Position numbers and translations under genes: made by a program. Under the pieces are notes generated by a model that worked only from the letters and a program-made list of their open reading frames with translations, had not been told where the DNA came from and did not search any database. DNA of 64,000 bases from Pseudomonadales bacterium (GTDB taxonomy: Bacteria > Pseudomonadota > Gammaproteobacteria > Pseudomonadales > JAHRWD01): NCBI GenBank assembly GCA_029210125.1, contig JARGPR010000001.1, forward strand, positions 186,001 to 250,000, read 5' to 3'. Shown here piece after piece: positions 5,518 to 24,945 of the stretch (positions within the stretch are counted from its first letter, which is position 1; every line of letters starts with the position of its first letter).

Positions 5518-6270
5518 ATGATGGTTAACGTGAAAAAAAAGGGGGTTTTATTGGGAGTTTCGGCAGTGCTGGCCTTTGCTGTTGGACTGCTGGTTAACTT
5601 TCCAGCCACTGTTGTATACGACAAGCTCAAGCTCGGACTTCCAACTCAAGTTGCTCAAGCACTCGTTAATATCGACGGTTCTATCTGGAACGGGCATGCA
5701 ATGCTTCGCGAAGGTACTCTTAACAGTGAAGTCGATTGGGAAGTGAGCCCCGCCGATCTGATTTCTGGTGGGCCTGGCCTGAGGTTGCACTTATATGAGG
5801 CTGACCACGATTTGGAGGTTACGTTAAGCCCAAGTGGTAAAAGCAGTGGCCGGATTCAGTTATCCGGGACCGTTCATAGTGCGTTAATTAACCGTCAGTT
5901 GGGTCCATATGGGATTCGGGTGAACAACGATGTTCAGCTGAATGGCATAGAAGTCGCGCTGCATAACAACCATTTTTCCGAGGGTAATGGAACGGTAACC
6001 TGGAAAGGCGGAACCGTAAGCTATAATTCTCCCGGTACTAAAAATATTCAGATGCCTCTGTTGCAGGGGGTGTTATCCACAAAGGCGGGTGCCTTGGTGA
6101 TGAGTATCTCTGAGGCGGGCGGTAGTGCCCCCATAAGTACGATAACTTTTAAGGCGGATGGATGGTTGGGAGCTGAAGTGAAGCCGAGAATGGCAGAGTT
6201 GATTTTACTGCCTAAACAGCGCGTGAATCGTGCTGGAAATGTGCTGGAAGTTAAACGAAAGGTGTTTTGA
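5518..6270 (+). CDS. gspN: Type II secretion system protein N
   Basis: This 250-residue protein has one N-terminal membrane segment (about residues 8-28, GVLLGVSAVLAFAVGLLVNF) and a periplasmic body. The motif PATVVYDKLKLGLP and the later VDIDGSIWNGHA-like stretch (IDGSIWNGHAML) are typical of GspN. GspN is an accessory inner-membrane T2SS component of unsettled role that is missing from many systems. Here it is the first gene, whereas in Klebsiella-type operons it follows gspM. A 111-base gap before gspC contains an inverted repeat, GTCTAA 6302-6307 with TTAGAC 6313-6318, so gspC may also have its own promoter. Confidence 0.88.
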   Translation: MMVNVKKKGVLLGVSAVLAFAVGLLVNFPATVVYDKLKLGLPTQVAQALVNIDGSIWNGHAMLREGTLNSEVDWEVSPADLISGGPGLRLHLYEADHDLEVTLSPSGKSSGRIQLSGTVHSALINRQLGPYGIRVNNDVQLNGIEVALHNNHFSEGNGTVTWKGGTVSYNSPGTKNIQMPLLQGVLSTKAGALVMSISEAGGSAPISTITFKADGWLGAEVKPRMAELILLPKQRVNRAGNVLEVKRKVF

Positions 6271-6381
6271 GCAATCCCAGGTTCGATCAAAAACGGGTTT
6301 AGTCTAAATACGTTAGACGCCCATATGTGGCTTATTTGAATTTATGTATAAAAAAATCGTTAGAGATAACCCAGTAGCCTG

Positions 6382-7242
6382 ATGCTGACAAAAAGAAACC
6401 TACTGTTGTTGGGGCTTTGGCTATTGCTGGTTGTAGTCGCTTACTTTTTGGGCGTGTTATTTTGGAACTGGTATGAACCCACCGCCGCCCCCGAAAAAGC
6501 ACAACGTGTTTTTCATCCGATGGATGCTAAGCGAACCAATTCGGCATCTAACAGAACCATCGTACAACAACCCTCAGAAATCAATACGATATTGGCTGCA
6601 AACCTGTTTGGAAATGACAAGTTAGTTACTAAGTCAGCGCAAAACAAACAAATAATAGAAGCACCAGAAACTCGGTTGAAATTTCAATTGCAGGGAATAT
6701 TTGTCAGTTCCAATGCAACACAAACGCGAGCGCTTATTGCCGAAAAAGGAAAACCCGCACACTCTTATAAAAAAGAGGATCAGCTGCCTGGCAACGTAAT
6801 ATTGGACGATATTCTTGAAGATCGAGTGCTGTTGCGTAGAGCTGGGCGGTTAGAAAGTCTTAGTTTCCCAAAAGAACGTGATGATAACCGTTCGAGAAAT
6901 ACTCAAAAGATGCTGACTTACCATAAAAAAAATAGCGCGACAGATGTCGTAAGCAGCCAAAAACAGGCGTATTACGAAAATCCGGTGAACTCCTTTGGTA
7001 GGTACGGGTTGAGTATGGATGATGAACAAGATGGTCTGCGACTCGATGGTGGTGCCAATAGCCATTTGCTCGAACGAGCAGGCCTAAAAAAAGGTGATCT
7101 AATTCGATCTGTCAATGGAAAAACTCTGAGTGATTTCAAGGCTGATCAAAATCTCGTCGAAAGCGTGGTTGCCAGCGGTGAATTAACCGTAGAAATAGAG
7201 CGCGCCGGTCAACCAATTATCCTGTCGCTACCGATTCCATAG
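6382..7242 (+). CDS. gspC: Type II secretion system protein C
   Basis: This 286-residue protein has one membrane anchor near residues 6-28 (LLLLGLWLLLVVVAYFLGVL), then a linker and the homology region with ETRLKFQLQGIFVSS, which in this family contacts the secretin N0 domain. A C-terminal PDZ domain spans about residues 205-285 (YGLSMDDEQDGLRLDGG, LLERAGLKKGDLIRSVNGK). GspC links the inner-membrane platform to GspD and takes part in substrate choice. Its stop is 2 bases before the ATG at 7245. The ribosome site is weak. Length and domain order are normal. Confidence 0.93.
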   Translation: MLTKRNLLLLGLWLLLVVVAYFLGVLFWNWYEPTAAPEKAQRVFHPMDAKRTNSASNRTIVQQPSEINTILAANLFGNDKLVTKSAQNKQIIEAPETRLKFQLQGIFVSSNATQTRALIAEKGKPAHSYKKEDQLPGNVILDDILEDRVLLRRAGRLESLSFPKERDDNRSRNTQKMLTYHKKNSATDVVSSQKQAYYENPVNSFGRYGLSMDDEQDGLRLDGGANSHLLERAGLKKGDLIRSVNGKTLSDFKADQNLVESVVASGELTVEIERAGQPIILSLPIP

Positions 7243-7244
7243 AT

Positions 7245-9236
7245 ATGAAACCAACGCAATTGATACGGGCGACGAGTGTTGCTTTTGACCTGTTTTTAAA
7301 AGGCTTTTTTATGATTCAGCGACTTACGAGTCAAACATTCACACGCTACTTTCGGCAAATGAGTATTATCATTTTTTGTCTATGGGGGGGGCGTTTCGCA
7401 ACTGCGGAATCGGTTACGCTAAATTTGGTCGATGCGGAAATTCGGACTGTCATTACGACCATTAGCGAAGCCACCGGCAAGAATTTTCTGGTGGATCCCC
7501 GGGTAAAGGGGAAAGTTACCGTTATCTCAGGAATTCCGCTTGATAAAGATGCACTTTACGATGTGTTTCTGTCGATTTTAGAGGTGCATGGTTTCGCTGC
7601 AATTGAGAACGATGGCATTGTAAAAATTATTCCCCAGAATATGGCCAAACAAGCCTCAATTCCTACAGGGGATGAGTCAAAAGGTTATCGCGGCGCCCAA
7701 AAAGTCACTAAAGTTCTCCGCCTCAAACATGTGTCAGCTGCCAAACTGATTCCGGTGTTAAGACCTCTGGTGCCTAAAGAGGGGCATATGGCAGCCTATA
7801 TTCCGGCCAATGCGTTAATCATTTCTGATTCCGCTGCAAATATAACCCGGCTAGGACGTATCATCGCATCCATTGATCAACCTACCAATAGCAGTATTGA
7901 AGTGGTGGAGCTTAAAAAAGCCAGCGCTGCTAAGGTGGTGCAGATGTTAAAAACTCTACAATCGACAAAGGCCAAAGGTACAGATTCTGTCATTGCAGTG
8001 GCGGATGAGAGGACCAATAGTGTTCTGTTGTCCGGTGATACCTCAAGCCGAGTATTAATGCGCTCGATTATTCAGCAGCTTGATGCCCCGGTCGATTCCA
8101 AATCCTTTGATCATGTTGTGTATTTGAATCACGCGATTGCCAAAGATTTGGCGCCATTATTGAATAAAACGGTTAATGCTAAAAGCAAAATGAGCAGCGC
8201 CCAAAAAGGCATCGCTACTGATCCTGCCAATATCCAAGCGGACGAAGCGACCAATTCGTTGGTGATTTCTGCCGGTCAGCAACAGTACAAATCCATATTA
8301 TCGATTATCGAAAAACTTGATGTGCGAAGAGCACAGGTAATGGTTGAGGCTATCATTGTTGACCTTGATGCGAGTAAGGCCAAAGAACTGGGTGTTCAAA
8401 TGGCAGGTATCGGATCAGAGGGTGATGTGTCCGGTGGTATTGTTAGTCAATCCTCCAATACCGGCAGTAACATTGGCGGTGTTATTTCCAGCGTTGTGAG
8501 TGATCAGATACCGGTTTTCGGAGACGGGCTTACATTTTTAGGCGGAACACAAAATTTTGCGTTGATGTTTAAGGCGCTGGAGTCCGATGCGGATACTAAT
8601 ATCCTCTCGACACCCTCACTGCTGACATTGGATAACAACGAAGCCGAGATTGTTGTGGGTAAAAACGTTCCCTTTGTGACCGGCTCATATACGGGTTCGA
8701 GTAATACTACCAGTAACCCTTTCCAGACAATTGAACGAAAGGATGTTGGATTAACGCTGAGAATAAAGCCACATATTAATGAAGGCGATGTCGTTCACCT
8801 TGAGATCAGCCAGGAGGTTTCGAGCATCAGCCCATCGACCGAAGGGGCCTCGGATCTAGTGACCAATAAACGCTCGATCAAAACTACTGTACTGATCAAT
8901 AACGGCGAGATTATTTCCCTTGGTGGGTTGATCGATGATCAGGTGACTGAATCTGAAAAAGCAGTACCCTATTTGAGCCGTATACCTTTTTTGGGGCGAT
9001 TGTTCAGAAGCAATACTACTGAAGTGACCAAACGAATGCTGATGGTATTTTTGCGCCCAAGTATTATTAGGAATGATGATGATAGTCGCGCTGTGACAAG
9101 CGCCAATTATGAAAAAATCCGCAACCGGCAGATTGAGGTCAAGGAAGCTGACCCTAAAAAAGATGCACGCTACCAGTACCCTGTTTTGCCTGAACTTAAA
9201 TACCAACTGATCACACCGGATTCGGCGGCGCAATGA
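7245..9236 (+). CDS. gspD: Type II secretion secretin
   Basis: This is the outer-membrane channel of the T2SS. The first in-frame ATG (7245) gives 663 residues, but the signal peptide looks cleaner from a later Met (residue 23 or 39, MSIIIFCLWGGRFATAE), so the start is uncertain. The N0 domain begins VTLNLVDAEIRTVITTISEA, followed by N1-N3 repeats (VTKVLRLKHVSAAKLIPVLR, SSIEVVELKKASAAKVVQML, FDHVVYLNHAIAKDLAPLL). The secretin domain has VMVEAIIVDL, ILSTPSLLTLDNNEAEI and GGLIDDQVTESEKAVPYLSR. The end is followed directly by gspE with a 4-base ATGA overlap, so the two are translationally coupled. Confidence 0.96.
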   Translation: MKPTQLIRATSVAFDLFLKGFFMIQRLTSQTFTRYFRQMSIIIFCLWGGRFATAESVTLNLVDAEIRTVITTISEATGKNFLVDPRVKGKVTVISGIPLDKDALYDVFLSILEVHGFAAIENDGIVKIIPQNMAKQASIPTGDESKGYRGAQKVTKVLRLKHVSAAKLIPVLRPLVPKEGHMAAYIPANALIISDSAANITRLGRIIASIDQPTNSSIEVVELKKASAAKVVQMLKTLQSTKAKGTDSVIAVADERTNSVLLSGDTSSRVLMRSIIQQLDAPVDSKSFDHVVYLNHAIAKDLAPLLNKTVNAKSKMSSAQKGIATDPANIQADEATNSLVISAGQQQYKSILSIIEKLDVRRAQVMVEAIIVDLDASKAKELGVQMAGIGSEGDVSGGIVSQSSNTGSNIGGVISSVVSDQIPVFGDGLTFLGGTQNFALMFKALESDADTNILSTPSLLTLDNNEAEIVVGKNVPFVTGSYTGSSNTTSNPFQTIERKDVGLTLRIKPHINEGDVVHLEISQEVSSISPSTEGASDLVTNKRSIKTTVLINNGEIISLGGLIDDQVTESEKAVPYLSRIPFLGRLFRSNTTEVTKRMLMVFLRPSIIRNDDDSRAVTSANYEKIRNRQIEVKEADPKKDARYQYPVLPELKYQLITPDSAAQ

Positions 9237-10711
9237 ATCGTCGAGCCGATATCCCCTTTGCTTTCTCAAAACGCAACGGCGTTTTGGTGATCGCAGAGGA
9301 GGAGCAATATGCAGAGGTCATTCAATCGGATAGCTCTGACCCAACTTCGTTGATCGAACTGCGCCGTTTTATGGGTGTGCCGCTTCGGGTAGAAAAAGTT
9401 GATTCGGCGAGATTTAACGCCCAACTACAGCAGCAGTATGAGGGTGGCTCCTCTGCAGTAATGGAAGAGATGGACGGCCTGTCCGCCGATACCCAGCATT
9501 TTGAAGACCTTAGCGAGTTAATCCCCGAACCCGAAGATTTAATGGAAAGCGACGACGACGCTCCCATCATTCGCCTGATCAACGCTATTCTCAGTGAAGC
9601 GATTCGTCTGGGTGCATCGGATATTCATATCGAACCCTTCGAAAGCCGTATGCGTGTACGGTTTCGTATCGACGGTATGTTACGTGAGGTATTGGCCCCC
9701 AAAAAAGCCCTAACCTCGCCGGTAGTTTCCCGTATAAAAGTAATGGCGAAACTAGATATTGCTGAAAAAAGATTACCCCAGGATGGCCGCATCTCCCTGC
9801 GGCTGGCAGGTCGGGCTGTGGATGTTCGGGTATCTACACTGCCCAGCGGTCACGGCGAGCGGGTTGTGTTGCGATTGCTCGAAAAAGAAAATGGCCGACT
9901 TGATCTTGAGACCCTTGGCTTAAGCGAGCGTGATCGAAAACGTCTCGATACTATTGTCCATCGTCCCCATGGGATTTTTCTGGTCACCGGTCCAACCGGG
10001 TCAGGTAAAACCACCACGCTCTACTCTGCGCTTTCTATTTTGAATCAATCCGACCGCAGCATCATGACGGTTGAAGATCCGGTAGAATATTTTATTGATG
10101 GGGTAAGCCAGACGGCTGTAAATACTAAAATAGAGATGAACTTTGCCCGTGGCCTGCGCGCTATTCTACGGCAGGACCCCGATATTGTGATGGTTGGAGA
10201 GATCCGAGACATAGAAACCGCAGAAGTTGCAGTGCAGGCGAGTTTGACCGGCCATCTGGTTTTGTCGACCCTGCATACCAATACCGCCGTAGGTGCAGTA
10301 ACGCGGTTGCGCGATATGGGCGTGGAGCCATTTTTGCTTGCATCCAGCCTACTTGGAGTGTTGGCTCAACGGTTGGTGAGAAAGCTTTGCTGCCATTGCC
10401 GTGAACCCTATCAGGCTGACCATGCCAGTTGCGAATTACTCGAAGTGGATCCAGCCAACCCACCCACGCTCTATCATGCAGGGGGCTGTGAGCATTGCTA
10501 TCAAACCGGCTTTTCAGGCCGGATAGGTGTTTTTGAACTGATTGAAGTAGATAACGCGATGCGTGAAGCGATTCACGATGGTAGCGGAGAAATTGAGCTT
10601 GAAAGAATCGCCCGTCAGCAGACTCAGAGCATCCGAAGCTCGGGAGTCGCATCGGTATTGTCGGGGGATACTACCCTGGACGAAGTGGTTCGGGTAACCA
10701 GGGAAAGCTGA
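9233..10711 (+). CDS. gspE: Type II secretion ATPase
   Basis: This 492-residue cytoplasmic hexameric ATPase drives pseudopilus assembly. The N1E-type region is followed by the N2 domain (ASDIHIEPFESRMRVRFRID). Walker A is GPTGSGKTT at about residues 253-261, the Asp box is near SIMTVEDPVEYF, Walker B is RQDPDIVMVGEIRD and the His box is GHLVLSTLHTN. A zinc-binding domain has two Cys-x2-Cys pairs, in KLCCHCREPY and GGCEHCYQTG, as expected for GspE. The start overlaps gspD by four bases. The reading frame is intact and of normal length. Confidence 0.97.
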   Translation: MNRRADIPFAFSKRNGVLVIAEEEQYAEVIQSDSSDPTSLIELRRFMGVPLRVEKVDSARFNAQLQQQYEGGSSAVMEEMDGLSADTQHFEDLSELIPEPEDLMESDDDAPIIRLINAILSEAIRLGASDIHIEPFESRMRVRFRIDGMLREVLAPKKALTSPVVSRIKVMAKLDIAEKRLPQDGRISLRLAGRAVDVRVSTLPSGHGERVVLRLLEKENGRLDLETLGLSERDRKRLDTIVHRPHGIFLVTGPTGSGKTTTLYSALSILNQSDRSIMTVEDPVEYFIDGVSQTAVNTKIEMNFARGLRAILRQDPDIVMVGEIRDIETAEVAVQASLTGHLVLSTLHTNTAVGAVTRLRDMGVEPFLLASSLLGVLAQRLVRKLCCHCREPYQADHASCELLEVDPANPPTLYHAGGCEHCYQTGFSGRIGVFELIEVDNAMREAIHDGSGEIELERIARQQTQSIRSSGVASVLSGDTTLDEVVRVTRES

Positions 10712-10715
10712 GTCG

Positions 10716-12005
10716 GTGGCCGCATATCATTACGTAGCGCTAGATGCCTCGGGGCGTGAGAAAAAAGGCGTCGAACAGGGTGATACCGCCCGTCAGGTTC
10801 GCCAGTTGCTAAGGGGTAAAGGCTGGACTCCTCTCGAAGTTCACGAAGTGCTGGAAAAACGCCGTCGTGCTAAAACTAGCTCAAAAAATAATTCAGATAG
10901 CAGCAACCATTCCGCTGCACAAGTTGACGACGCTAAACAGCAAGTCAAACCGAAATCACTTTTTAACCCCTCCATCAGCATCAAAGACCTGGCTCTGGTG
11001 ACGCGACAACTTGCGACCTTAACGCGCGCGGCTTTACCCCTTGATGAAGCGCTTAACACGGTGGCAAGTCAGACCAGCAAAGATCGAGTAAAACGGGTGA
11101 TGACCAGCGTGCGGGCGCAGGTCGTTGAAGGCCAAAGCCTGGCCCATGCGATGTCTAATTTCCCTAAGGTTTTTAAGCAGGATTATGTTGCCACGGTGCG
11201 GGCAGGGGAGCAGTCCGGAGACCTGGCCGGCGTGCTGGATCGATTAGCGGACTACACCGAAAACGGTCAAAAAATTCGCCAAACCGTTTCTAACGCCATG
11301 TTATATCCGGTCATCCTTTGCACCGTTGCGATATTGGTCGTGGTGATGATGCTGACCTATGTTGTACCGCAGGTTATTGAGGTGTTTGAAGGTATTGATC
11401 AAGAGCTGCCATTGTTGACCCGAACCTTGATTGCTGCAAGTGATTTTCTGCAGGCCTACGGTTTTCTGCTATTGATATTGCTGGTGATGTTAGGTGTGGT
11501 TATTGGATGGTTTTTAAAGAAACCTGGCCCAAAATTGCGCTGGCATAAATTGCTGTTGAGGATACCGTTAATTGGCCAGTGGTTAAAAATCAGCAACTGT
11601 GCGGTGTTTTGTCGTACTCAGGCCACGCTGCTGGCCAGCGGCGTGCCCATGCTTGAAGCGTTACGAATTAGCTCGGAGGTGCTTTCTAATATTCCAATGC
11701 GATCCAGTATGGAAGAGGCTTCCAAGCGTATTCGTGAAGGAGCTAGTCTTTCCTACGCGCTCACTAAAACCGGCTATTTTCCACCCATGACACTACATCT
11801 AATCGCCAGTGGTGAGGCCAGCGGTGCGCTTGGGGAGATGCTGTTTAAAGCCGCGGAAAATCAGGAGCGTGATCTTGAAAGTTGGATTGGTACTTTCTTG
11901 GCAATTCTAGAACCAGTACTGATTCTATTGATGGGCGGCCTGGTGATGATTATCGTATTGGCGATTATGATGCCCATTTTTGAATTGAATCAGATGGTGG
12001 GTTAG
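10716..12005 (+). CDS. gspF: Type II secretion inner-membrane platform protein F
   Basis: This 429-residue polytopic protein starts at GTG 10716-10718, five bases after gspE, giving MAAYHYVALDASGREKKGV, the normal GspF N-terminus. Two copies of the T2SSF cytoplasmic domain are seen: LALVTRQLATLTRAALPLDE with SGDLAGVLDRLADYTE, and AVFCRTQATLLASGVPML with ASGALGEMLFKAAE. Each is followed by hydrophobic segments (AMLYPVILCTVAILVVVMML, and the C-terminal PVLILLMGGLVMIIVLAIMM). A charged serine- and asparagine-rich linker at about residues 48-85 is slightly long. GspF anchors GspE under the assembling pseudopilus. Confidence 0.96.
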   Translation: MAAYHYVALDASGREKKGVEQGDTARQVRQLLRGKGWTPLEVHEVLEKRRRAKTSSKNNSDSSNHSAAQVDDAKQQVKPKSLFNPSISIKDLALVTRQLATLTRAALPLDEALNTVASQTSKDRVKRVMTSVRAQVVEGQSLAHAMSNFPKVFKQDYVATVRAGEQSGDLAGVLDRLADYTENGQKIRQTVSNAMLYPVILCTVAILVVVMMLTYVVPQVIEVFEGIDQELPLLTRTLIAASDFLQAYGFLLLILLVMLGVVIGWFLKKPGPKLRWHKLLLRIPLIGQWLKISNCAVFCRTQATLLASGVPMLEALRISSEVLSNIPMRSSMEEASKRIREGASLSYALTKTGYFPPMTLHLIASGEASGALGEMLFKAAENQERDLESWIGTFLAILEPVLILLMGGLVMIIVLAIMMPIFELNQMVG

Positions 12006-12054
12006 CCGCAGACTTTACCCGCTAAACTAAATAAATCCACAAGAGAAATTAAGC

Positions 12055-12489
12055 ATGCAAAGCACAGTCAGCCGCCAGCGCGGTTTTACATTGATCGAAA
12101 TTATGGTTGTGGTCGTGATCCTCGGTATTTTGGCATCAGTGGTAGTGCCACGAATTATGGATAGGCCGGATACCGCACGAATCACCAAGGCGCGACTGGA
12201 TATTCAGGCGCTGGAAAGCGTGCTCAATCAATACCGGCTTGATAACTTTGTATACCCGAGTACCGAACAAGGCCTTGAAGCATTGGTAGAGAAACCATCA
12301 GGCGACCCTGAACCCGCCAACTGGAACAAAAGTGGCTATATCAAAAGCTTACCAAAGGACCCCTGGAACCGCCCTTATCTTTATCTTAGCCCTGGTGAAA
12401 AAGGTGAATTTGATCTGTATAGCTTAGGTGCAGATGGCCAATCTGGTGGTGAAGATGCCAACGCTGATATTGGCAACTGGGCTCCTTGA
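12055..12489 (+). CDS. gspG: Major pseudopilin G
   Basis: This 144-residue protein has a type IV prepilin leader of 10 residues and the cleavage site RQRG^FTLIE, with Glu at +5 of the mature protein. The hydrophobic helix IMVVVVILGILASVVVPRIM follows. The C-terminal domain carries the GspG signatures LDNFVYPSTEQGLEALV and LPKDPWNRPYLYLSPGE, and the calcium loop SLGADGQSGGEDANADIGNW. It is the main subunit of the T2SS pseudopilus. The prepilin peptidase that would process it is not in this window. The ATG follows AAGAGAAATTAAGC. Confidence 0.97.
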   Translation: MQSTVSRQRGFTLIEIMVVVVILGILASVVVPRIMDRPDTARITKARLDIQALESVLNQYRLDNFVYPSTEQGLEALVEKPSGDPEPANWNKSGYIKSLPKDPWNRPYLYLSPGEKGEFDLYSLGADGQSGGEDANADIGNWAP

Positions 12490-12527
12490 TGCTGCAAATT
12501 ATTTGCAGTTAATTTGAAATAGCTTCC

Positions 12528-13046
12528 GTGCGACACCATCACCATAAAACAGCAGGGTTTACCCTGATCGAATTGTTGGTGGTTCTGGTCATCATGGGGG
12601 TGATGATCTCGCTGGTTACCCTCAGTATCGGCATTCAAAACCGTGAGCGTGAAACCCATCAATTTGCCCTGCGGCTGATCAGTTTGATGCGCCTTGCATC
12701 GGATGAAGCGGTGTTAAACGGCAAATTCATTGGCTGGCAAATAGATCAGCAGCAGTACCGGTTTATGCAACGGCAGGACGACAAATGGATAACAGTTGAG
12801 GATGACCGATTGCTCAAAGCCAATCCAATCCCCAGCTGGATTCATTCGGAGTTTGAAGTCGAGGGCCGCGCCGTCGAGCAACTGCAATCCCCGGAGCAAC
12901 CGCAATTACTGTTTTTGCCCAGCGGCGAAATTACCAGCTTTAGGTTAGAGTTATTTGATGGGTTAGATCAAGAAGCGGTTCATTTCAGATTGCAAAATCG
13001 ATACGCGGACCTCGCTCTAACCCGAATAGAACCTGGCGAGCAGTGA
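12528..13046 (+). CDS. gspH: Minor pseudopilin H
   Basis: This 172-residue minor pseudopilin starts at GTG 12528. The leader MRHHHHKTAG is cut before FTLIELLVVLVIMGVMISLV. The family features SLMRLASDEAVLNGKFIGW and the aromatic-rich RFMQRQDDKWITVED match GspH. In the pseudopilus tip complex of H-I-J-K it joins the tip to the GspG shaft. A run of four histidines in the leader is unusual but harmless. The 38-base gap after gspG has no terminator. Confidence 0.92.
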   Translation: MRHHHHKTAGFTLIELLVVLVIMGVMISLVTLSIGIQNRERETHQFALRLISLMRLASDEAVLNGKFIGWQIDQQQYRFMQRQDDKWITVEDDRLLKANPIPSWIHSEFEVEGRAVEQLQSPEQPQLLFLPSGEITSFRLELFDGLDQEAVHFRLQNRYADLALTRIEPGEQ

Positions 13047-13050
13047 TCAA

Positions 13051-13479
13051 ATGATGAACCCCAGATCATGCAACAGATTACGCAGCGGATCACTTCACCG
13101 ATCAAATATTTCAGATCGACGGCGCAGCCATGGCTTCACCCTGATAGAGATTCTGGTAGCGCTGGCAGTAGCAGGTATAGCACTTACTGCAATTCTTAAA
13201 GCGGTGGATGCGCAGCTCGTCAGCGCACAAATAATGGAAGAAAAAACCGTTGCTCACTGGGTGGCGCAAAACGTAGCCACGGAAATTCGCTTATTACCCC
13301 AATGGCCTTCCATAGGTTCAAAGCAGGGCGAAACCGAAATGCTGCAACAACAGTGGAGCTGGCAAGCATTGACCAGTGGTACTCCAGACCCCAACCTGCG
13401 TCGGGTCGATATTAAGATTCTCAACCCGTCAGAAACCCAGCGCGGCGGTATCACCATTTTCCTGGGGAAAAACCGTTGA
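13051..13479 (+). CDS. gspI: Minor pseudopilin I
   Basis: This 142-residue minor pseudopilin has a long, basic leader of about 28 residues before the peptidase site RRSHG^FTLIEILVALAVAGIAL. The GspI signatures are LKAVDAQLVSAQIMEEKTVA and HWVAQNVATEIRL. It nucleates the pseudopilus tip with GspJ and GspK. The leader is longer than the usual 6-10 residues. No later Met exists before the cleavage site, so the length appears real unless a GTG or TTG is used. The stop overlaps the gspJ start as TGATG. Confidence 0.92.
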   Translation: MMNPRSCNRLRSGSLHRSNISDRRRSHGFTLIEILVALAVAGIALTAILKAVDAQLVSAQIMEEKTVAHWVAQNVATEIRLLPQWPSIGSKQGETEMLQQQWSWQALTSGTPDPNLRRVDIKILNPSETQRGGITIFLGKNR

Positions 13480-14123
13480 TGGGGAGTCGCCAACCGTCAC
13501 TGTGCTCAATGCGCCAGCGGTCGTTAGGGCGCATTCAGCTGAACGGGTTTACGCTGGTCGAGTTGCTGATCGCAATCGTATTATTTTCGATTGTTTCAAT
13601 CGGTAGTTATCAGGTGTTGAGCTCGGTGATCAGTAGTCACCGAAAACTCAGTAGTCACAACGAAAAATTTGAGGGTCTCAGGCGTGCGGCAAACATGCTC
13701 ACACGAGACCTTCAACAGGTTCAACCGCGCACCGTAACCAATGCCTACGGTGATCAGGAAAATGCGTTGATTCTGGAAAGCTCAGATCTGTCGCGGCTTG
13801 TGCTGAGCTCCGGTGGGTGGGATAACCCTTTAATGGCGGCCAGAGGTACTGTAGGCCGTATCGAATTCTTTGTTGAGGACGAGGTACTGATAAAACGGCT
13901 TTGGCTGGTGCTGGATGCGTTAGATCAGGAAAGTCATTTTGATATGCCGTTGGTCAAGGGAGTGTCCGAGTTTCAAATACGTGCGCTAAATCCTGAGCAA
14001 CGCTGGCTAAGTTTTTGGCCTATGGAGGATATGCCAGCAACTGAGCTGCCGCGGGCATTGGAGGTTGAACTGGTTGTTGCGGAATTAGGAACTATTAAAC
14101 GAGTGCTGGAGCTACTTCCGTGA
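13479..14123 (+). CDS. gspJ: Minor pseudopilin J
   Basis: This 214-residue protein starts at ATG 13479, which overlaps the gspI stop by one base. A 23-residue leader ends IQLNG^FTLVELLIAIVLFSIVSI. Downstream motifs RRAANMLTRDLQQVQPR and ILESSDLSRLVLSSGGWDNP are characteristic of GspJ. It is part of the tip complex. It ends with a 4-base GTGA overlap into gspK, which implies coupled translation. Confidence 0.93.
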   Translation: MGSRQPSLCSMRQRSLGRIQLNGFTLVELLIAIVLFSIVSIGSYQVLSSVISSHRKLSSHNEKFEGLRRAANMLTRDLQQVQPRTVTNAYGDQENALILESSDLSRLVLSSGGWDNPLMAARGTVGRIEFFVEDEVLIKRLWLVLDALDQESHFDMPLVKGVSEFQIRALNPEQRWLSFWPMEDMPATELPRALEVELVVAELGTIKRVLELLP

Positions 14124-15130
14124 ACACGGCGCATCCTGACCGAGTAAACAAACAGGGCGGAGTTGCACTGATTACGGTATTGCTGATCGTCGCAATATGC
14201 TCGCTGCTGGCTACACAGCTGATCAGCCAGCAGCATATCCAGTTCCGTCGGACCCTCAATCAGCTTCAGGGTGACCGTGCATTCCATTACGTGCTCAGTG
14301 CCGAAGAATGGGGACGTGAAATTTTGATTCGTGATGCCAACGAAAATCAACAGGACAATTATAATGATGACTGGGCTGCGGTATTGCCACCGATGGAAGT
14401 CGATGGTGGCATGATGCTGTTGGCAGCACAGGAGATGCACGGGCGCTTTAATATCAACAATTTGGTCATTAATGGTGTAGTAGATAACAAGCAGGTCGAA
14501 ATTTTCCAGAGGCTGCTTGAAAACCTGGAGCTTGAACCAAATCTGGTCTGGCCGTTGGTTGATTGGCTCGATTCAAATGAGGAGGTCGTTGGGCCCTTTG
14601 GCGCGGAACATGACAGTTATAGTGAGCTAACGCCGCCTTATCGTCCTGCAAATCAGGCGATGATTAATCCCGATGAGCTTGCCGCAGTGCAAGGGTATAC
14701 GCCTATTATCCTGGCAGCATTAGTGGACCACGTGGTCGCGTTGCCGGTTTTGAATGCCGGAACACCCACCGCAACATTGTTCAATGTGAATTTTATAACC
14801 GAGCCGCTGTTACGCTCTTTATCGGCGAAAATGGCCAGTGCGTCTGTTGAAGAGGTATTGCAGGAGGCGATTGACGATGGCTTTAACTCGATTAACGATT
14901 TTTTGAATGCGATCGACGATGCCAACCCTGAAATCACTGGGTTAAGCAGCAGTATCGATAGAACACTTTTGAGTGTGCAAAGCGAATATTTTCTATTGGA
15001 ATATCAAGGCGATTTTGAGCCTGTTGTTCTCAAGAGCCATAGCATCATGCACCGAGATTCCGATGCCAACGTGCGCATCATCAATCGGGCACAAGGGGAA
15101 TACTATAGTGTCACAACAGCTATTTATTGA
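14120..15130 (+). CDS. gspK: Minor pseudopilin K
   Basis: This 336-residue protein starts at GTG 14120. The leader ends NKQGG^VALITVLLIVAICSLL. As in other GspK proteins, position +5 is not Glu, which fits its place at the very tip. The large alpha domain includes GDRAFHYVLSAEEWGREIL, LVDWLDSNEEVVGPFGAEHD and NPDELAAVQGYTPII. GspK is the cap of the pseudopilus. Its last codons overlap the gspL start at 15108. Confidence 0.95.
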   Translation: MNTAHPDRVNKQGGVALITVLLIVAICSLLATQLISQQHIQFRRTLNQLQGDRAFHYVLSAEEWGREILIRDANENQQDNYNDDWAAVLPPMEVDGGMMLLAAQEMHGRFNINNLVINGVVDNKQVEIFQRLLENLELEPNLVWPLVDWLDSNEEVVGPFGAEHDSYSELTPPYRPANQAMINPDELAAVQGYTPIILAALVDHVVALPVLNAGTPTATLFNVNFITEPLLRSLSAKMASASVEEVLQEAIDDGFNSINDFLNAIDDANPEITGLSSSIDRTLLSVQSEYFLLEYQGDFEPVVLKSHSIMHRDSDANVRIINRAQGEYYSVTTAIY

Positions 15131-16337
15131 CGGCTCTGGTCATCCGGGCGACCCGATTGATTGGGCGGTAAGAAGTGAATTAAATACGATTTTCCATACC
15201 GGGCAACTATCGGATATTTCCGTAGAGGAGGGCACCTCGGTTGTGCTGGTATTTTCAGGTTTAGACGTATTATTGCTCAGCGCGCCTATGCCAACCCGAA
15301 ATCAGCAGAAAATCCGTCAGGCATTGCCTTATCTTTTTGAAGAACAGCTAATTGAAGATACTGAAACCTTGCACTTTGCTATGGGACCACTGAAGTCTGA
15401 TAGGTTGCAGGTAGCGGTGATCGCAAAGGAGCGTCTGCAGGAGTGGATAGATGCGCTGACAGCAGTGGGCATTCAACTCGACAGTGCTGTAACGGATATT
15501 CAGCTATTAACGCCCAAAGTTGCTGGATGGACCGTCTGGTGTAATGAATATAGCGCATTAGTTCGCACCGAAGAGGGCGCTGGTTTTGCCTGTGATCGGG
15601 AACAACTGGTTGAACTACTCGCCGCATTACCCAGATCAGGTGATCATTCGGAACCTGTAGACTCGGTACATATCCACCACGAAGGAGAGCTAGACCTGTT
15701 TCCCTTCACCAGCAACCTGGCAGATATGACGATAACCGAAGAGGTGATTGAACCATCTGGGACATCACGGTTCCAGTTCTTACTTGAGCAGTTCACTGAA
15801 CAAAAACACTACAAGCCGATTGAGCTACTTCAGGCCCAGTATGCCCCGGAAAAACCGTCGCGGATTTCCACAAAATTAGCAGCTATCGCCTGCTCCGTAA
15901 CACTGCTGTTGGTTGTGGGTTATTCGTCACTGCTGTGGTATCAGAACAGCCGCTTCGAAACCCAACACCGGGCACTTCAGCAACAGATAACCAGTTTATA
16001 CCGGTCGACGTTTCCAAATGAAAAACGGGTGATCGATGCAAAGGTACAGATGCAAGGTCACCTGCGAAAACTAGCGGCTCAGGATACGGGTGGGGGTGGA
16101 CTGTTTGGTCTAATGGCGTCCGTTGCACAGGTAACGGATAAAAATAGCCAAATTGAGTTTAAACAACTGAGGTTTCAAAAAAACAGTCTAGAGCTTAAAT
16201 TTGAAGCGGGTAGCCTGCAGGTGGTCGAACAATTCAGAGATCGAATACATACGAAAGGGCTCACTACAAAAATTCTTAGCGCCAATAAGGATACCGGTCG
16301 TGTTAAGGCAAGGTTAAAAATAGAGGCGGCTTCATGA
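15108..16337 (+). CDS. gspL: Type II secretion platform protein L
   Basis: This 409-residue protein starts at GTG 15108-15110, preceded by GGGGAA. The start is chosen because the protein then begins SQQLFIDGSG and overlaps gspK by 23 bases; the frame is open further upstream, but that is the shadow of gspK. A cytoplasmic actin-like domain (about residues 1-250) contains QKIRQALPYLFEEQLIED, the GspL signature. A single membrane segment (LAAIACSVTLLLVVGYSSLL) and a periplasmic ferredoxin-like domain follow. GspL recruits the ATPase GspE and pairs with GspM. It ends with a 4-base ATGA overlap with gspM. Confidence 0.93.
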   Translation: MSQQLFIDGSGHPGDPIDWAVRSELNTIFHTGQLSDISVEEGTSVVLVFSGLDVLLLSAPMPTRNQQKIRQALPYLFEEQLIEDTETLHFAMGPLKSDRLQVAVIAKERLQEWIDALTAVGIQLDSAVTDIQLLTPKVAGWTVWCNEYSALVRTEEGAGFACDREQLVELLAALPRSGDHSEPVDSVHIHHEGELDLFPFTSNLADMTITEEVIEPSGTSRFQFLLEQFTEQKHYKPIELLQAQYAPEKPSRISTKLAAIACSVTLLLVVGYSSLLWYQNSRFETQHRALQQQITSLYRSTFPNEKRVIDAKVQMQGHLRKLAAQDTGGGGLFGLMASVAQVTDKNSQIEFKQLRFQKNSLELKFEAGSLQVVEQFRDRIHTKGLTTKILSANKDTGRVKARLKIEAAS

Positions 16338-16810
16338 AAAACTGGTTTCTGAGCCTGGGCGAGCGGGATAGGAAAATTGTAGTGGCATTAGGTTTGATTG
16401 TCTCATTTGTGATGCTCTACGCATTTCTGTGGATGCCGTTACTCAAAGAGAATGCCCAGCTAGAGCAACGAGTTCAGAGTTCCCAATCAGATCTTGAATG
16501 GATGCAGCAGGCAACCCAAAAGATAAAAACTTCAGGGCCGCTGTCCAAATCGAAAGCTGAACGCAAATTATCGTCCGGTTCTTTTCTTACCTTGATAGAA
16601 AAAACCGCCGCAACCGCCAATATTAAACTAGAAAAAATAGTACCGAAAAAAGATAAACAGGTTGAAATACGTTTGAAGAGTGTTTCGTTCAATCAAGTCA
16701 TCAGTTGGATAGAGCTGCTAACAAGAAAGCATGGCGTAGTGGCTAGCAAGTTTTCAGCAGAGAAGGTAAGCATAGGAAAGGTTAATCTGGTTGTACTGCT
16801 TGAAGGATGA
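16334..16810 (+). CDS. gspM: Type II secretion platform protein M
   Basis: This 158-residue protein has a short cytoplasmic stub (MKNWFLSLGERDRKI), one membrane helix (VVALGLIVSFVMLYAFLW) and a periplasmic coiled-coil plus ferredoxin-like domain (VSFNQVISWIELLTRKHGVV). This is the standard GspM architecture. It binds GspL and GspC in the inner-membrane platform. It is the last T2SS gene; no gspO or gspS follows, so prepilin peptidase and pilotin must be encoded elsewhere. No clear terminator is seen in the 137-base gap before the permease gene. Confidence 0.92.
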   Translation: MKNWFLSLGERDRKIVVALGLIVSFVMLYAFLWMPLLKENAQLEQRVQSSQSDLEWMQQATQKIKTSGPLSKSKAERKLSSGSFLTLIEKTAATANIKLEKIVPKKDKQVEIRLKSVSFNQVISWIELLTRKHGVVASKFSAEKVSIGKVNLVVLLEG

Positions 16811-19554: not shown

Positions 19555-20496
19555 TTAATTCGGAAAAACCTCCCTTGCTGCCCAGCGTGAAAATTCTTCT
19601 CGGGTACAGCTATCACAGGAGTTAAATCCCTGCCCTTCAACTACGCGGTAAATCACCATATCCTTTTGTGGGTCGCTGGATTTTGATTCATCGATGATAC
19701 GCCGCACCGACCACTGAGGGCCATGCTTACCGTTGGTATAGAAATGATCGAACTCAATTTCCTGTTTGGTAAGCTGCTGCAGGTTGGCGTGTTGCAGTGA
19801 TAGCTGGATGACACGTTGTAAGTCATCAAGGGTTACATCCATCACTAAATCCATATCTGCCAGCGCTTGTTTGATCGTATCTTTATCAACGACGTGTTCG
19901 CTACCACCCTCATCATATAGCTGGGGTTGACCATCGGTGAAACGCATCATTGCAGCCGCCGGGTACCGTCGCCAGGGGAAGAAGGCATTAAACACAATAG
20001 CAATGATAAATATGATCATTACATTGAGTAATATTGGCGTCAGCACGTAGGCATAACCCAGGTCGTGAATGGCTGGGCCACCTACGACTGCAACCAGAGC
20101 GGTAGCTCCGCCAGGGGGATGGATACATCCGAGTATATGCATGACGCCTATCGACAGACCAACTGCCAGGCCTGATGCAAGATAGATATCAGGGACCAGT
20201 TGATAGCAGGCCACCCCAACCAGCGCTGACACCAGACTGCCGCCAATCAATGGCCAGGGCTGGCTTAGTTTGCCGTGCGGAATGGCGAAAACCAGCACTG
20301 CGGAAGCCCCCATTGCAGGTACGATCAATGCGGCTCCAGTGGCTCCAGTAACTTGAAAGCTAATATGCGCGATCAGGATTATGCCGATTGTTCCCCCTAA
20401 GGTAGCCACCATTTTCTCTGCTGAACTCACGTTTCCTGGCTCAATGGCCATAAAACGCTGGGTGCGTTTCAATATGCTGGCTATCATTTTTCGCAT
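19555..20496 (-). CDS. HPP-family membrane transporter (nitrite/nitrate type)
   Basis: This 313-residue protein starts at ATG 20494-20496 (MRKMIASILKRTQ), preceded by AAGGAC; the frame is open further upstream to 20655, but that crosses the operators. Four membrane helices carry the HPP signature: IPHGKLSQPWPLIGGSLVSA and HILGCIHPPGGATALVAVVG. A C-terminal cytoplasmic region of about 120 residues follows. HPP proteins include nitrite transporters of chloroplasts and the NrtS nitrate transporter of cyanobacteria. It is divergent from a globin-reductase pair across NsrR-type operators, so control by nitric oxide and a role in moving nitrite or nitrate are likely (inference). Confidence 0.85.
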   Translation of the reverse strand: MRKMIASILKRTQRFMAIEPGNVSSAEKMVATLGGTIGIILIAHISFQVTGATGAALIVPAMGASAVLVFAIPHGKLSQPWPLIGGSLVSALVGVACYQLVPDIYLASGLAVGLSIGVMHILGCIHPPGGATALVAVVGGPAIHDLGYAYVLTPILLNVMIIFIIAIVFNAFFPWRRYPAAAMMRFTDGQPQLYDEGGSEHVVDKDTIKQALADMDLVMDVTLDDLQRVIQLSLQHANLQQLTKQEIEFDHFYTNGKHGPQWSVRRIIDESKSSDPQKDMVIYRVVEGQGFNSCDSCTREEFSRWAAREVFPN

Positions 20497-20574
20497 GGTA
20501 TAGCTGTCCTTATGATTGTTCTGTTTCGCGTTAAGAATATATTCTAAGAAAAGGTTTAATATTATCCAAACAAT

Positions 20575-20597
20575 AAGTTGTATTTTAAATACATCTT
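20575..20597. promoter_or_regulatory. NsrR operator 1 (near-perfect)
   Basis: The site reads AAGTTGTATTT-T-AAATACATCTT. The known NsrR consensus is AAGATGyATTT-N-AAATrCATCTT. The right half matches fully and the left half has one mismatch (21 of 22). It lies between the divergent HPP gene and the globin operon, and nsrR itself is 1.6 kb away. Confidence 0.85.
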
Positions 20598-20616
20598 TTG
20601 TTAGAGTGGCATTACA

Positions 20617-20639
20617 AACATATATATTAAATATATCTT
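20617..20639. promoter_or_regulatory. NsrR operator 2 (weaker)
   Basis: AACATATATAT-T-AAATATATCTT fits the same consensus at about 18 of 22 positions. Its start is 42 bases from that of operator 1, close to four helical turns. It lies just upstream of the globin ribosome site (AGGGAGA, 20642-20648), where a bound repressor would block that promoter. Confidence 0.55.
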
Positions 20640-20655
20640 CTAGGGAGATAAGCAT

Positions 20656-21021
20656 ATGAGTAGCGTATACGATCGCATTGGCGGCGAAGCAGCGGTAGAT
20701 AAAGCGGTTGACATTTTTTACCGTAAAGTACTCGCTGATGATCGCGTTAATGAGTACTTTGATGGTGTTGATATGGATAAGCAGGCCAACAAACAGAAGG
20801 CTTTCTTAACCATGGTATTTGGCGGGCCGAATAACTACACAGGTATGGATATGCGCGAAGGGCATAAGCATCTTGTAGCTCGTGGCCTGAACGATAGTCA
20901 TGTTGATGCAATCATTGAACTGCTTGGCGGCACATTGGCGGATCTGGGTGCAGCCCCGTCAGATATTCAAGAAGTAGCTGATATTGCTAACAGCGTTCGT
21001 GATGACGTGCTGGACCGGTAA
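20656..21021 (+). CDS. Group 1 truncated haemoglobin
   Basis: This 121-residue 2-on-2 globin has the TrHb signature SVYDRIGGEAAVDKAVDIFY with Tyr at B10 (in DIFYRKVL). VFGGPNNYTGMDMREGHKHL carries the proximal His (residue 70, GxxMREGH pattern). The end is typical of group I. Such globins bind O2 and NO, and several turn NO plus O2 into nitrate. The next gene, 6 bases on, encodes a ferredoxin/FAD reductase, the partner a globin without its own reductase domain needs. Expression should be repressed by NsrR through the two upstream operators. Confidence 0.92.
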   Translation: MSSVYDRIGGEAAVDKAVDIFYRKVLADDRVNEYFDGVDMDKQANKQKAFLTMVFGGPNNYTGMDMREGHKHLVARGLNDSHVDAIIELLGGTLADLGAAPSDIQEVADIANSVRDDVLDR

Positions 21022-21027
21022 CCCATC

Positions 21028-22005
21028 ATGACAGTTATCGTTTTCGACGACCAAAAAATCGAGCTTGAGTCTGGGCAGACAGTATTGTCTGCTCTGCTTG
21101 ACCGGGGATACGACATTCCCAACAGTTGTCAGGCTGGTGCATGCCAAACTTGTATGATGCAGGTCGTCGAAGGCGAACTACCTGAAAAATCCCAATCCGG
21201 TTTGAAGGATACCCTGAAAGCCCAAGGCTATTTTCTTGCCTGTAGCTGTGAACCCCAAACACCTTTGAGTATCAAAGTTAGCCAGGCTGCTGATCTACGA
21301 TCTCAAGCAACCGTTGTCGGCCATGATTGTCTTGGCGCCGATGTACTGCGTTTGCGGATTAAACCCACCGGGACATTTGATTTTTATTCAGGTCAATATT
21401 TAACGGTCTGGAAAAGTGAAACCGTAGGTCGAAGTTACTCCATTGCCAGCGTCGCTAAACGTGATGACTATGTTGAATTACATATTCGTCGAATTAAAGA
21501 TGGTGTGGTAAGCAACTGGTTACACGATGAAGTGAAAGTTGGCGATGAACTTCAAATCCAGTCTGCAACCGGCAGCTGTTTTTATATTCCCGGCACGCCG
21601 GAGCAAAATATTTTATTAGCAGGAACCGGCACCGGACTTGCGCCATTATTGGGTATTGCAAGCGATGCGCTGCACCAGGGCCACAGTGGTGATATTCATC
21701 TCATACATGGCGCATTAACGGTTGATGACCTTTATTTACATCAACTGCTAATTGATATGGCCAGTCAGCATTCCAATTTTAACTACTATGCCAGTGTTCT
21801 AAAAGTAGAGCAGGTTCTGCCACCAGTCACTACTGAATCACTTCAAGGTACAGTATTGGCGGTAGCCGATGACCCCGCCGACTGGAAAGTTTATCTATGC
21901 GGTAGCCCCGAGATTGTCGGTCAGCTGAAAAAAGCTATTTTTCTTGCCGGTGCCAGCATGAAAAATATTTATACAGACCCTTTTATTAGCGCGCATTCAA
22001 GCTAG
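21028..22005 (+). CDS. 2Fe-2S ferredoxin / FAD-NAD(P)H reductase (globin reductase partner)
   Basis: This 325-residue fusion has a plant-type 2Fe-2S domain (residues 1-85; ligands Cys34, Cys39, Cys42 and Cys72 in SCQAGACQTCMM and FLACSC). It is followed by an FAD domain with RSYS (135-138) and an NAD(P)H domain with LLAGTGTGLAPLLGI (about 197-210) and KVYLCGSPEIVG. This is the architecture of electron-transfer components of ring-hydroxylating oxygenases. No oxygenase is nearby; the gene follows the truncated haemoglobin by 6 bases under NsrR-type operators. The simplest reading is that it reduces the globin, so the two proteins together mimic flavohaemoglobin. That pairing is inference. Confidence 0.88.
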   Translation: MTVIVFDDQKIELESGQTVLSALLDRGYDIPNSCQAGACQTCMMQVVEGELPEKSQSGLKDTLKAQGYFLACSCEPQTPLSIKVSQAADLRSQATVVGHDCLGADVLRLRIKPTGTFDFYSGQYLTVWKSETVGRSYSIASVAKRDDYVELHIRRIKDGVVSNWLHDEVKVGDELQIQSATGSCFYIPGTPEQNILLAGTGTGLAPLLGIASDALHQGHSGDIHLIHGALTVDDLYLHQLLIDMASQHSNFNYYASVLKVEQVLPPVTTESLQGTVLAVADDPADWKVYLCGSPEIVGQLKKAIFLAGASMKNIYTDPFISAHSS

Positions 22006-22211
22006 CCTGCCTGGGCTCAGATGCTTTGGGTAAGATATATCGCTGATATTGGCTGTGCTGATAGAGGCGTTGTAAAAATAGCTGCCTTGCCATGCATGAT
22101 ATAAATTCAGTAATAAGCTGTTAATATAAACAGCTATTCAGTTCCAGGCACATTGTTGTTGCGGTCGGTGCAGCCGTAGTAACAAAAAGTTAATTAACCT
22201 ACTGGTCCATC

Positions 22212-22688
22212 ATGCAACTAACGCGGTATACCGATTACAGCCTGCGAGTGCTCATATATTTAGCTCTTCAGGAAGAGGGCACGCGGGTTACTGTTTCCGA
22301 AATTTCCGAACATTTTGATATACCTAAAAATCACCTGGTTAAAGTCGTTCATCATCTCGGAAAGCTGGACTATATAAATACCACCCGAGGAAAAAATGGC
22401 GGTATCTGCCTTGCTAAAAAGCCCGAAGAGATGGGTGTCGGTGACATCATCCGAAAGATGGAACATAACCTTAAAATCGTCGACTGTCAGTCCCCCTCCG
22501 CCTGTCCTATTTTGCCGATTTGTTTATTACCCTCCATATTGTCCAGGGCTGGTGATGCATTTTTGAATGTGCTTGATCAATATACGATTGCAGGATTACT
22601 GAGCCAATCAGGTCAGCTCAAATCATTGCTGGGAACAGGCGAGATGTCTGACAAATACCAGCAGATTAAAACCCGAAGTATTGACTGA
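22212..22688 (+). CDS. nsrR: NO-sensing Rrf2-family repressor NsrR
   Basis: This 158-residue protein starts MQLTRYTDYSLRVLIYLALQ, an Rrf2 winged helix. The recognition helix region is IPKNHLVKVVHHLGKLDYI, and TTRGKNGGICLAK forms the wing. Three cysteines (92, 98 and 104, in CQSPSACPILPIC) and Asp8 are the [4Fe-4S] ligand set of NsrR. IscR ligand spacing differs. NO destroys the cluster and releases DNA. It lies about 200 bases after the globin-reductase operon it probably controls and has its own upstream region (22006-22211). Confidence 0.93.
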   Translation: MQLTRYTDYSLRVLIYLALQEEGTRVTVSEISEHFDIPKNHLVKVVHHLGKLDYINTTRGKNGGICLAKKPEEMGVGDIIRKMEHNLKIVDCQSPSACPILPICLLPSILSRAGDAFLNVLDQYTIAGLLSQSGQLKSLLGTGEMSDKYQQIKTRSID

Positions 22689-23676: not shown

Positions 23677-23823
23677 TATTTTCCGTATTGATCACTGTAA
23701 CAGTACCTTGAGCCCACCAGATTACTCCTGACCTATACGACCATCAAAGCATTGACATCGAATAGATGATGCAGTCTGATGTCTGGAGAATAAAAATAAT
23801 AATTCCCTGGGAGGATGTACACA

Positions 23824-24945
23824 ATGCATACAGAATTGGCCAAAAAATTAGGTATCGAATACCCCATTTTTGCGTTTACTCACTGCCGTGATGTGGTGGC
23901 AGCGGTCACCAACGCTGGTGGTATAGGTGTGCTTGGTGCAACTGGCTTTAACGCCGAGCAGCTTGAAGTAGAACTCAACTGGATTGATGAGCGAGTAGGG
24001 GGCAAGCCCTATGGCGTTGATGTCATTATACCCACTAACTACGAAGGTAAAGGCGAGCAGGACCCGGATAAACTGCTTGCCATCATTAAAGCTGCGATTC
24101 CCCAGGGTCATCGTGATTTTGTTCAGCAGCTCTGTGAACAACATGGTTTACCCCACTTAGCGACCGATAAACCGGTTGAAGAGCGCCTAAGCATGACGGA
24201 CGCAACCTCAACACCGCTGGTTGATGTCGCGCTCACCCATGATAACTGCAAGTTGATTGCAAATGCGTTAGGTACGCCACCGGAACATGTCATTAAACAG
24301 GTTCAGGATTCCGGGCGTATGATCGGTGCGCTTTGTGGTAGTGCAAAACACGCGCGCTATCATGTGGAAGCAGGGCTGGATTTTATCGTTGCGATGGGTG
24401 GTGAAGGCGGCGGACACTGCGGCGAGGTGAGCAGTATCGTACTGTGGCCGGAAGTGGTCAAAATTGCCGGAGATATTCCAGTCATTGCAGCGGGTGGTGT
24501 GGGTAGTGGACAGCAGTTGGCTGCGGCATTGGCACTGGGTTGTGAAGGAACCTGGAGCGGATCAATCTGGCTAACGGTTGCTGAAGCGGCAACCTCGGAT
24601 GCGCAGAAGGAGCGCATGTTTAGTGCCACATCGAGCGATACCGTTCGCTCGAAGAGTTTTACCGGTAAACATGTTCGAATGCTTAAAAACAAATGGACCG
24701 ATGCCTGGGAAGCGGAAAACAATCCCGACCCATTGGGAGCGCCGATGCAGGGCATGTTAACCAGCGATGCAACCCGGCGGATGCGTGAATACCCGGCTAA
24801 ATCCCAGGATCTGTTCTTCAGCCCGGTAGGCCAAATCGTGGGTACCATGAACGAAACTATCGGTGCCCGTGAGAAGGTGATGGAGATGGTTCACGGTTAT
24901 CTCGACAGCACCGAACGGCTCACAAGCCTGTTGCCTGACGATTAA
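23824..24945 (+). CDS. Nitronate monooxygenase (2-nitropropane dioxygenase family)
   Basis: This 373-residue FMN enzyme starts at ATG 23824 (MHTELAKKLGIEYPIF). The earlier ATG at 23815 touches the ribosome site GGGAGG, so I prefer the second. Family motifs are NAGGIGVLGATG near the N-terminus, DFIVAMGGEGGGHCGEVSS for phosphate/FMN binding and the putative catalytic His, and VIAAGGVGSGQQLAAALALG. The family oxidises alkyl nitronates or acts as related FMN reductases/oxygenases; the real substrate is open. An insertion (residues about 60-140) is typical of the longer subgroup. A strong terminator follows at 24971. It lies 1.1 kb from the NO module, but no operator is seen. Confidence 0.88.
   Translation: MHTELAKKLGIEYPIFAFTHCRDVVAAVTNAGGIGVLGATGFNAEQLEVELNWIDERVGGKPYGVDVIIPTNYEGKGEQDPDKLLAIIKAAIPQGHRDFVQQLCEQHGLPHLATDKPVEERLSMTDATSTPLVDVALTHDNCKLIANALGTPPEHVIKQVQDSGRMIGALCGSAKHARYHVEAGLDFIVAMGGEGGGHCGEVSSIVLWPEVVKIAGDIPVIAAGGVGSGQQLAAALALGCEGTWSGSIWLTVAEAATSDAQKERMFSATSSDTVRSKSFTGKHVRMLKNKWTDAWEAENNPDPLGAPMQGMLTSDATRRMREYPAKSQDLFFSPVGQIVGTMNETIGAREKVMEMVHGYLDSTERLTSLLPDD

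Follow-up and report, generated by a model that had tools for sequence, protein, structure and literature searches.

How does a bacterium handle nitric oxide (NO) when a profile search of its genome returns no match to flavohaemoglobin Hmp, and can the work of that one polypeptide be divided between two genes? The question is raised by four genes with intact frames at positions 19555-22688 of the window (the whole stretch of DNA analysed here, 64 kb in length) from a marine bacterium with a genome of 3.13 Mb, in which the window lies on contig 2. An original prediction, made from the letters alone, had read this locus as NO sensing, NO oxidation and transport of the product. In our analysis that reading gained strong genomic support from gene pairing, operators, fusions, the exclusion of Hmp and the linkage of the transporter gene, while transport of nitrite or nitrate stands as plausible but unproven. 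The probable answer is that the locus encodes an NsrR-controlled two-component NO dioxygenase, namely a "split flavohaemoglobin", together with a co-regulated anion transporter of the HPP family. The features concerned are as follows.

19555..20496, minus strand: HPP-family membrane protein, 313 amino acids; PF04982 (TM_HPP), E 1.3e-48.
20575..20597, no strand: NsrR-like operator 1, AAGTTGTATTTTAAATACATCTT; 21/22 to the consensus, best site in the genome.
20617..20639, no strand: NsrR-like operator 2, AACATATATATTAAATATATCTT; 18/22, 16 bases 5' of the glbN start codon.
20656..21021, plus strand: glbN, group 1 truncated haemoglobin, 121 amino acids; PF01152 (Bac_globin), E 1.2e-17.
21028..22005, plus strand: 2Fe-2S/FAD/NAD(P)H reductase, 325 amino acids, predicted electron donor of glbN; Fer2, FAD_binding_6, NAD_binding_1.
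22212..22688, plus strand: nsrR-type Rrf2 repressor, 158 amino acids; PF02082, E 1.4e-35; Asp8, CX5CX5C.

The intact frames and the Pfam matches bear out the four genes and their families as first called, and the coordinates agree with the arrangement that had been described: globin and reductase lie 6 bases apart (21021 to 21028), the HPP gene is divergent from glbN, reductase and regulator with both palindromes between HPP and glbN (the 21/22 and 18/22 sites), and the Rrf2 gene follows the reductase after 206 bases. The gene cluster holds no oxygenase, which had also been pointed out at the start.

As for the globin, it matches PF01152, its closest solved relatives are the group 1 proteins cyanobacterial GlbN and algal THB1 (PDB E 1e-29 to 5e-26), and His F8 and Tyr B10 are in place, all of which assigns it to the group 1 truncated haemoglobins. 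Its pocket consists of Tyr22 (B10), Gln43 (E7), Lys46 (E10), Gln47 (E11) and His70 (F8), all five invariant in 109 relatives. Tyr B10 with Gln E11 forms the pocket of NO-oxidising group 1 globins, and Tyr B10 with Gln at E7/E11 is tied to O2 binding and NO dioxygenation; the genomic evidence thus supports a predicted role of GlbN as NO dioxygenase (EC 1.14.12.17). It might be argued instead that the main activity of the pair is reduction of NO or nitrite under anaerobic or microaerobic conditions, or that it serves chiefly as a peroxidase or a redox sensor, since several reactions are possible for group 1 globins, NsrR operators indicate only induction by NO or by damage to iron-sulphur (Fe-S) clusters, and the globin of Bradyrhizobium is important under O2 limitation (PMC4724949). 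Against this stand the invariance of the residues for O2 binding and NO dioxygenation and the mutual exclusion of glbN and Hmp described below, and we regard such a main role as improbable. Moreover, because Lys E10 is the distal haem ligand of THB1 (as cited in an excerpt of PMC11904497), coordination of the haem by lysine may be predicted for the glbN family as a whole.

Several variants of the globin gene were also seen. Tandem glbN domains occur in one frame of about 270-297 amino acids (L095 5139-5891, L051 1501-2256, L066, L056 and L065), some of these fusions adjoining an HPP gene; elsewhere two glbN genes stand in tandem as separate frames. In L104 (6814-7950; genome G597, contig C110) the glbN domain ends a frame of 381 amino acids whose N-terminal part has a membrane segment and which also contains an acidic, Ala-rich linker; the product is possibly a membrane-anchored globin.

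The reductase has the ferredoxin motif CX4CX2C, the FAD motif RXY[ST] and an NAD domain, namely an architecture like that of BenC and PRK05713, and both the ferredoxin and the FAD motifs are present in 73/73 globin-linked reductases. Its top named models are PRK05713, BenC and MmoC, and no specific oxygenase-reductase cut-off is passed; for BenC it scores 134 bits vs 430, and the oxygenase is absent from the cluster. These names, as well as some relatives at 35-44% identity that have no adjoining globin, might suggest a general oxygenase- or ferredoxin-type reductase lying beside glbN by accident. We therefore looked at the partners across genomes, about a thousand of which were compared overall, with a class-wide sample of 369. 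A close glbN is found in 67 of the 369, and the reductase directly adjoins glbN in 46 of the 54 glbN loci examined, 7 of the 46 having been picked via the reductase; the comparison as a whole suggests that globin, reductase, transporter and sensor form one recurring set. Outside the class, in a phylum sample, 27/29 reductase loci carry the pair, in many cases with glbN present twice and nsrR in divergent orientation, and the pair is found on Methylocystis plasmids too. In a tree of 109 sequences the globin-linked reductases cluster, with 10 label changes vs 30.7 in shuffles, and the window reductase falls into a clade (support 97/82) with those of G328, G628, G420 and the sibling G001, all globin-linked and 4/5 with HPP adjoining. 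Most directly, natural fusions of the reductase with Bac_globin occur in two families (G489, a 536-amino-acid frame; G657, a 521-amino-acid frame), which argues that this reductase family serves globins. Where relatives have no globin close by, their neighbours vary, and a conserved association with an oxygenase, which had been named as a finding that would count against the pairing, did not emerge: the one clade that adjoins a Rieske-type oxygenase gene (L037 and L038) is the most distant, at about 31% identity, and lies far outside the globin-linked ones. A role in serving an oxygenase was accordingly rejected, and an incidental neighbourhood is very improbable. A search of genome contigs with the reductase gave one true relative only (L005).

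The fusion loci L143 (2668-4257) and L178 (3553-5076) have the order Fer2-FAD-NAD, truncated globin and a C-terminal CXXC...CXXC tail, and they represent a distinct one-piece globin reductase architecture.

What controls these genes? NsrR is an Fe-S cluster repressor, and damage of the cluster by NO releases the repression. The regulator of the locus aligns to the solved NsrR 5n07, has the Rrf2 fold (PF02082) and carries the NsrR ligands, namely Asp8, present in 39/39 relatives, and three cysteines (CX5CX5C); moreover, nsrR adjoins glbN in many relatives. In agreement with NsrR membership, the two 23-base palindromes of 11-1-11 form rank first and second among the sites of the window. In the genome they are the best two of 4 sites at no more than 2 mismatches, against 1 for the reversed-pattern control, and because the site was already known when this pattern for the genome was drawn up, the comparative test is the stronger evidence. 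Upstream (5') of glbN, NsrR-like sites of at least 16/22 occur in 35/54 loci, compared with 0/1386 windows taken as controls, the threshold having been chosen after the control maximum of 15 was known; where nsrR was detected, 33/40 genomes have an operator, and where it was not, 2/11 (p=1.5e-4). The remaining two genome sites, C5:91451 and C29:61953, were rejected as real operators and are probably due to chance, since neither adjoins a related gene: the neighbours encode a periplasmic Lnb/DUF protein in one case and comprise the end of metH with a cation ATPase region in the other. The NnrS gene of the genome has no nearby site scoring at least 15, and a sigma-70 promoter scan gave scores no better than shuffles.

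With respect to Hmp, this protein passes electrons from NAD(P)H through FAD to haem as an NO dioxygenase, and it is the classic NsrR target. Full-length Hmp is present in 28 of the 369 class genomes and in none of those with glbN, where 5.1 would be expected (p=0.004, by a statistic that ignores phylogeny); 10 more matches to the Hmp model cover the reductase part only and were left uncounted. The two also alternate inside a single genus, g166, where Hmp is found in some species and glbN in another one. The zero overlap together with this alternation suggests that the glbN system may functionally replace Hmp.

The membrane protein is the more variable member of the locus. It matches PF04982 with 165 bits vs a cut-off of 27.2, has the motif CIHPPGGATAL and aligns with 13 relatives at 39-62% identity. 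Its start is very probably the ATG at 20496 and not at 20655, where the listed open reading frame of 366 amino acids begins, since the relatives align from MRKM... at the former position and the longer frame would cross both operators. The membrane part is predicted to be mostly helical (predicted model, pTM 0.50), and the C-terminal domain (about residues 200-313; window 19555-20150) is without a Pfam match; PDB sequence and fold searches with the protein and with this domain, for which the same model (pTM 0.50) was used, gave no significant relative. The C-terminal domain (YYTNG..G..WSVRQIID ... SCTRxEFAxWA) is conserved in many HPP proteins, and others have tandem CBS domains instead.

HPP lies at most 3 kb from glbN in 12/74 glbN genomes of 8 families, against an expectation of about 0.14. 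The layout is divergent in G000, G628 and G420, convergent downstream in G328, G495, G368 and G629, and co-directional in G437 and G587 as well as in G598, G496 and G370, the last three without reductase; in G659, which belongs to another class and a ninth family, glbN, reductase, nsrR and HPP all run in one direction. The linkage thus amounts to 13 genomes, 9 families and four layouts, and in view of such repetition a chance neighbourhood was rejected. Moreover, HPP is commoner in glbN genomes (36/67 vs 89/302, p=3e-4), with no enrichment in Hmp genomes, and NsrR-like sites lie 5' of 5/30 HPP genes away from glbN, where 0.2 would be expected (background 21 sites in about 1.27 Mb). Since plant and cyanobacterial HPP proteins (AtNITR2;1 and others) have been linked with nitrite transport (Maeda 2014, cited in excerpts of PMC4137279 and PMC7438415), it is plausible that the window HPP moves nitrite or nitrate as the product of the pair.

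The direction of this transport may be disputed. The tested HPP proteins, as cited in the same two excerpts, are nitrite uptake carriers, HPP genes are frequent without glbN (the 89/302 genomes above), and several of them have CBS or other regulatory C-terminal domains, so that the globin and the reductase might detoxify NO while HPP takes up nitrite or nitrate for nitrogen assimilation and merely shares the control of NsrR by NO or Fe-S status. However, taking in nitrite while under NO stress would be apt to raise NO further, HPP adjoins glbN in layouts that include both a divergent promoter and one operon, and some distant HPP genes are themselves preceded by NsrR-like sites; we consider the uptake explanation unlikely, though it is the strongest of the rivals.

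Returning to the two-component NO dioxygenase with its transporter, the following mechanism can be proposed. NsrR carrying its Fe-S cluster would repress the shared HPP/glbN promoter region through the two operators, and damage of the cluster by NO would derepress both divergent units, as suggested by the operators together with what is known of how NsrR works. The ferrous haem of GlbN would bind O2 and oxidise NO to nitrate, becoming ferric, and the reductase would re-reduce it along NAD(P)H, FAD and 2Fe-2S, as the pairing, the operon spacing and the fusions indicate. HPP would then carry nitrite, nitrate or both through the membrane, more likely to the outside, and so clear the product. The sensing and transport steps are drawn from established family knowledge, operators and linkage, and the oxidation and re-reduction steps from pairing, fusions and pocket residues.

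Several points weigh against this explanation. The regulator reaches 136 bits for the NCBIfam NsrR model NF008240, below the cut-off of 182, and NsrR is still its best Rrf2 equivalog; 8/54 glbN loci have no adjacent reductase; and the sampled genomes are not independent of one another in phylogeny, which makes the p-values too optimistic. As regards the transporter, 33/74 glbN genomes have no HPP at all, neither HPP nor nsrR was detected in G001, a genome of the same genus with the pair and an operator, and NO dioxygenation gives nitrate, whereas the documented activity of HPP is nitrite transport. With its linkage on one side and its absence from many glbN genomes on the other, HPP is a recurrent, optional partner and not a core component. 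A nitronate monooxygenase/FabK-like gene lies downstream of nsrR in the window (23815-24945; PF03060, E 2.4e-38), and in G001 such a gene directly follows the glbN-reductase pair, by which HPP and nsrR are marked as the variable parts.

A bolder version, which we put forward tentatively, is that NsrR-controlled glbN with invariant Lys E10 and dedicated 2Fe-2S flavoreductases is the standing replacement of Hmp across much of Pseudomonadota, with HPP as a dedicated carrier for clearing nitrate or nitrite. If this were true, the set would be a complete sense-oxidise-export module, and its transporter family would be a newcomer to NO defence. The locus also offers a possible explanation of NO handling in many bacteria without Hmp, and it suggests what an orphan class of HPP membrane proteins may concretely do. 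Moreover, a native reductase is known for few single-domain globins, a gap stated in PMC3820574, and since the locus and its relatives name a genetically linked candidate backed by fusions, the reducer of bacterial truncated haemoglobins becomes directly testable.

Elsewhere in the window, a plus-strand run at 5518-16810, by eye type II secretion (gsp)-like, ends just upstream of the region, and a gene at 1923-2759 (MARPLRLEYAGAIYHVTSRGDRRE...) resembles, by eye, a REP-associated Y1-type transposase. PADLOC gave no match to any defence system.

How far, finally, is this system already known? In Legionella pneumophila the glbN-lpg2536 operon was the sole predicted NsrR target, with an Hmp-like NO oxidation proposed for it (Rodionov 2005, PMC1274295), and the proposal was restated by Gardner 2012 (PMC3820574). 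The likeness to our locus is close, with a cyanoglobin-type globin and a ferredoxin reductase under NsrR, but these two texts mention no HPP, wide distribution or fusions, the comparison being one of descriptions only. The narK-bjgb-flp-nasC operon of Bradyrhizobium, with an experimental role in NO detoxification (PMC4724949), likewise joins a separate globin and a flavoprotein reductase with a nitrate/nitrite transporter; its globin, however, is a single-domain one of flavohaemoglobin type, its transporter is the MFS protein NarK, its control is by NasST, and it includes a nitrate reductase. The initial statement that the arrangement had not been described was therefore overstated for the NsrR-controlled glbN-reductase core, while its HPP partner was indeed not found: our open-access literature searches returned nothing combining NsrR with HPP, or NsrR with truncated hemoglobin. 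Compared with Hmp, the proposed scheme from NAD(P)H through FAD to a haem NO dioxygenase and the NsrR control are alike, but Hmp is one polypeptide with a 3/3 globin and no 2Fe-2S, and here there are separate genes, a 2/2 globin and an added ferredoxin domain. The HPP nitrite carriers (AtNITR2;1, cyanobacterial), as far as the excerpts describe them, share the TM_HPP domain and the HPP motif with the window protein, which differs in its extra C-terminal domain and its NsrR operators and whose carrier role is putative. Chlamydomonas THB1 (PDB 4xdi) is also a group 1 globin with Lys at E10 and a link to nitrogen metabolism, yet it is algal and has other partners, and the lysine ligation is a prediction for the bacterial glbN family. 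Altogether the module is real and well conserved, with a core predicted earlier, and to the literature the present analysis adds the HPP association, the breadth, the operator conservation, the reductase-globin fusions, the exclusion of Hmp and the invariant Lys E10.

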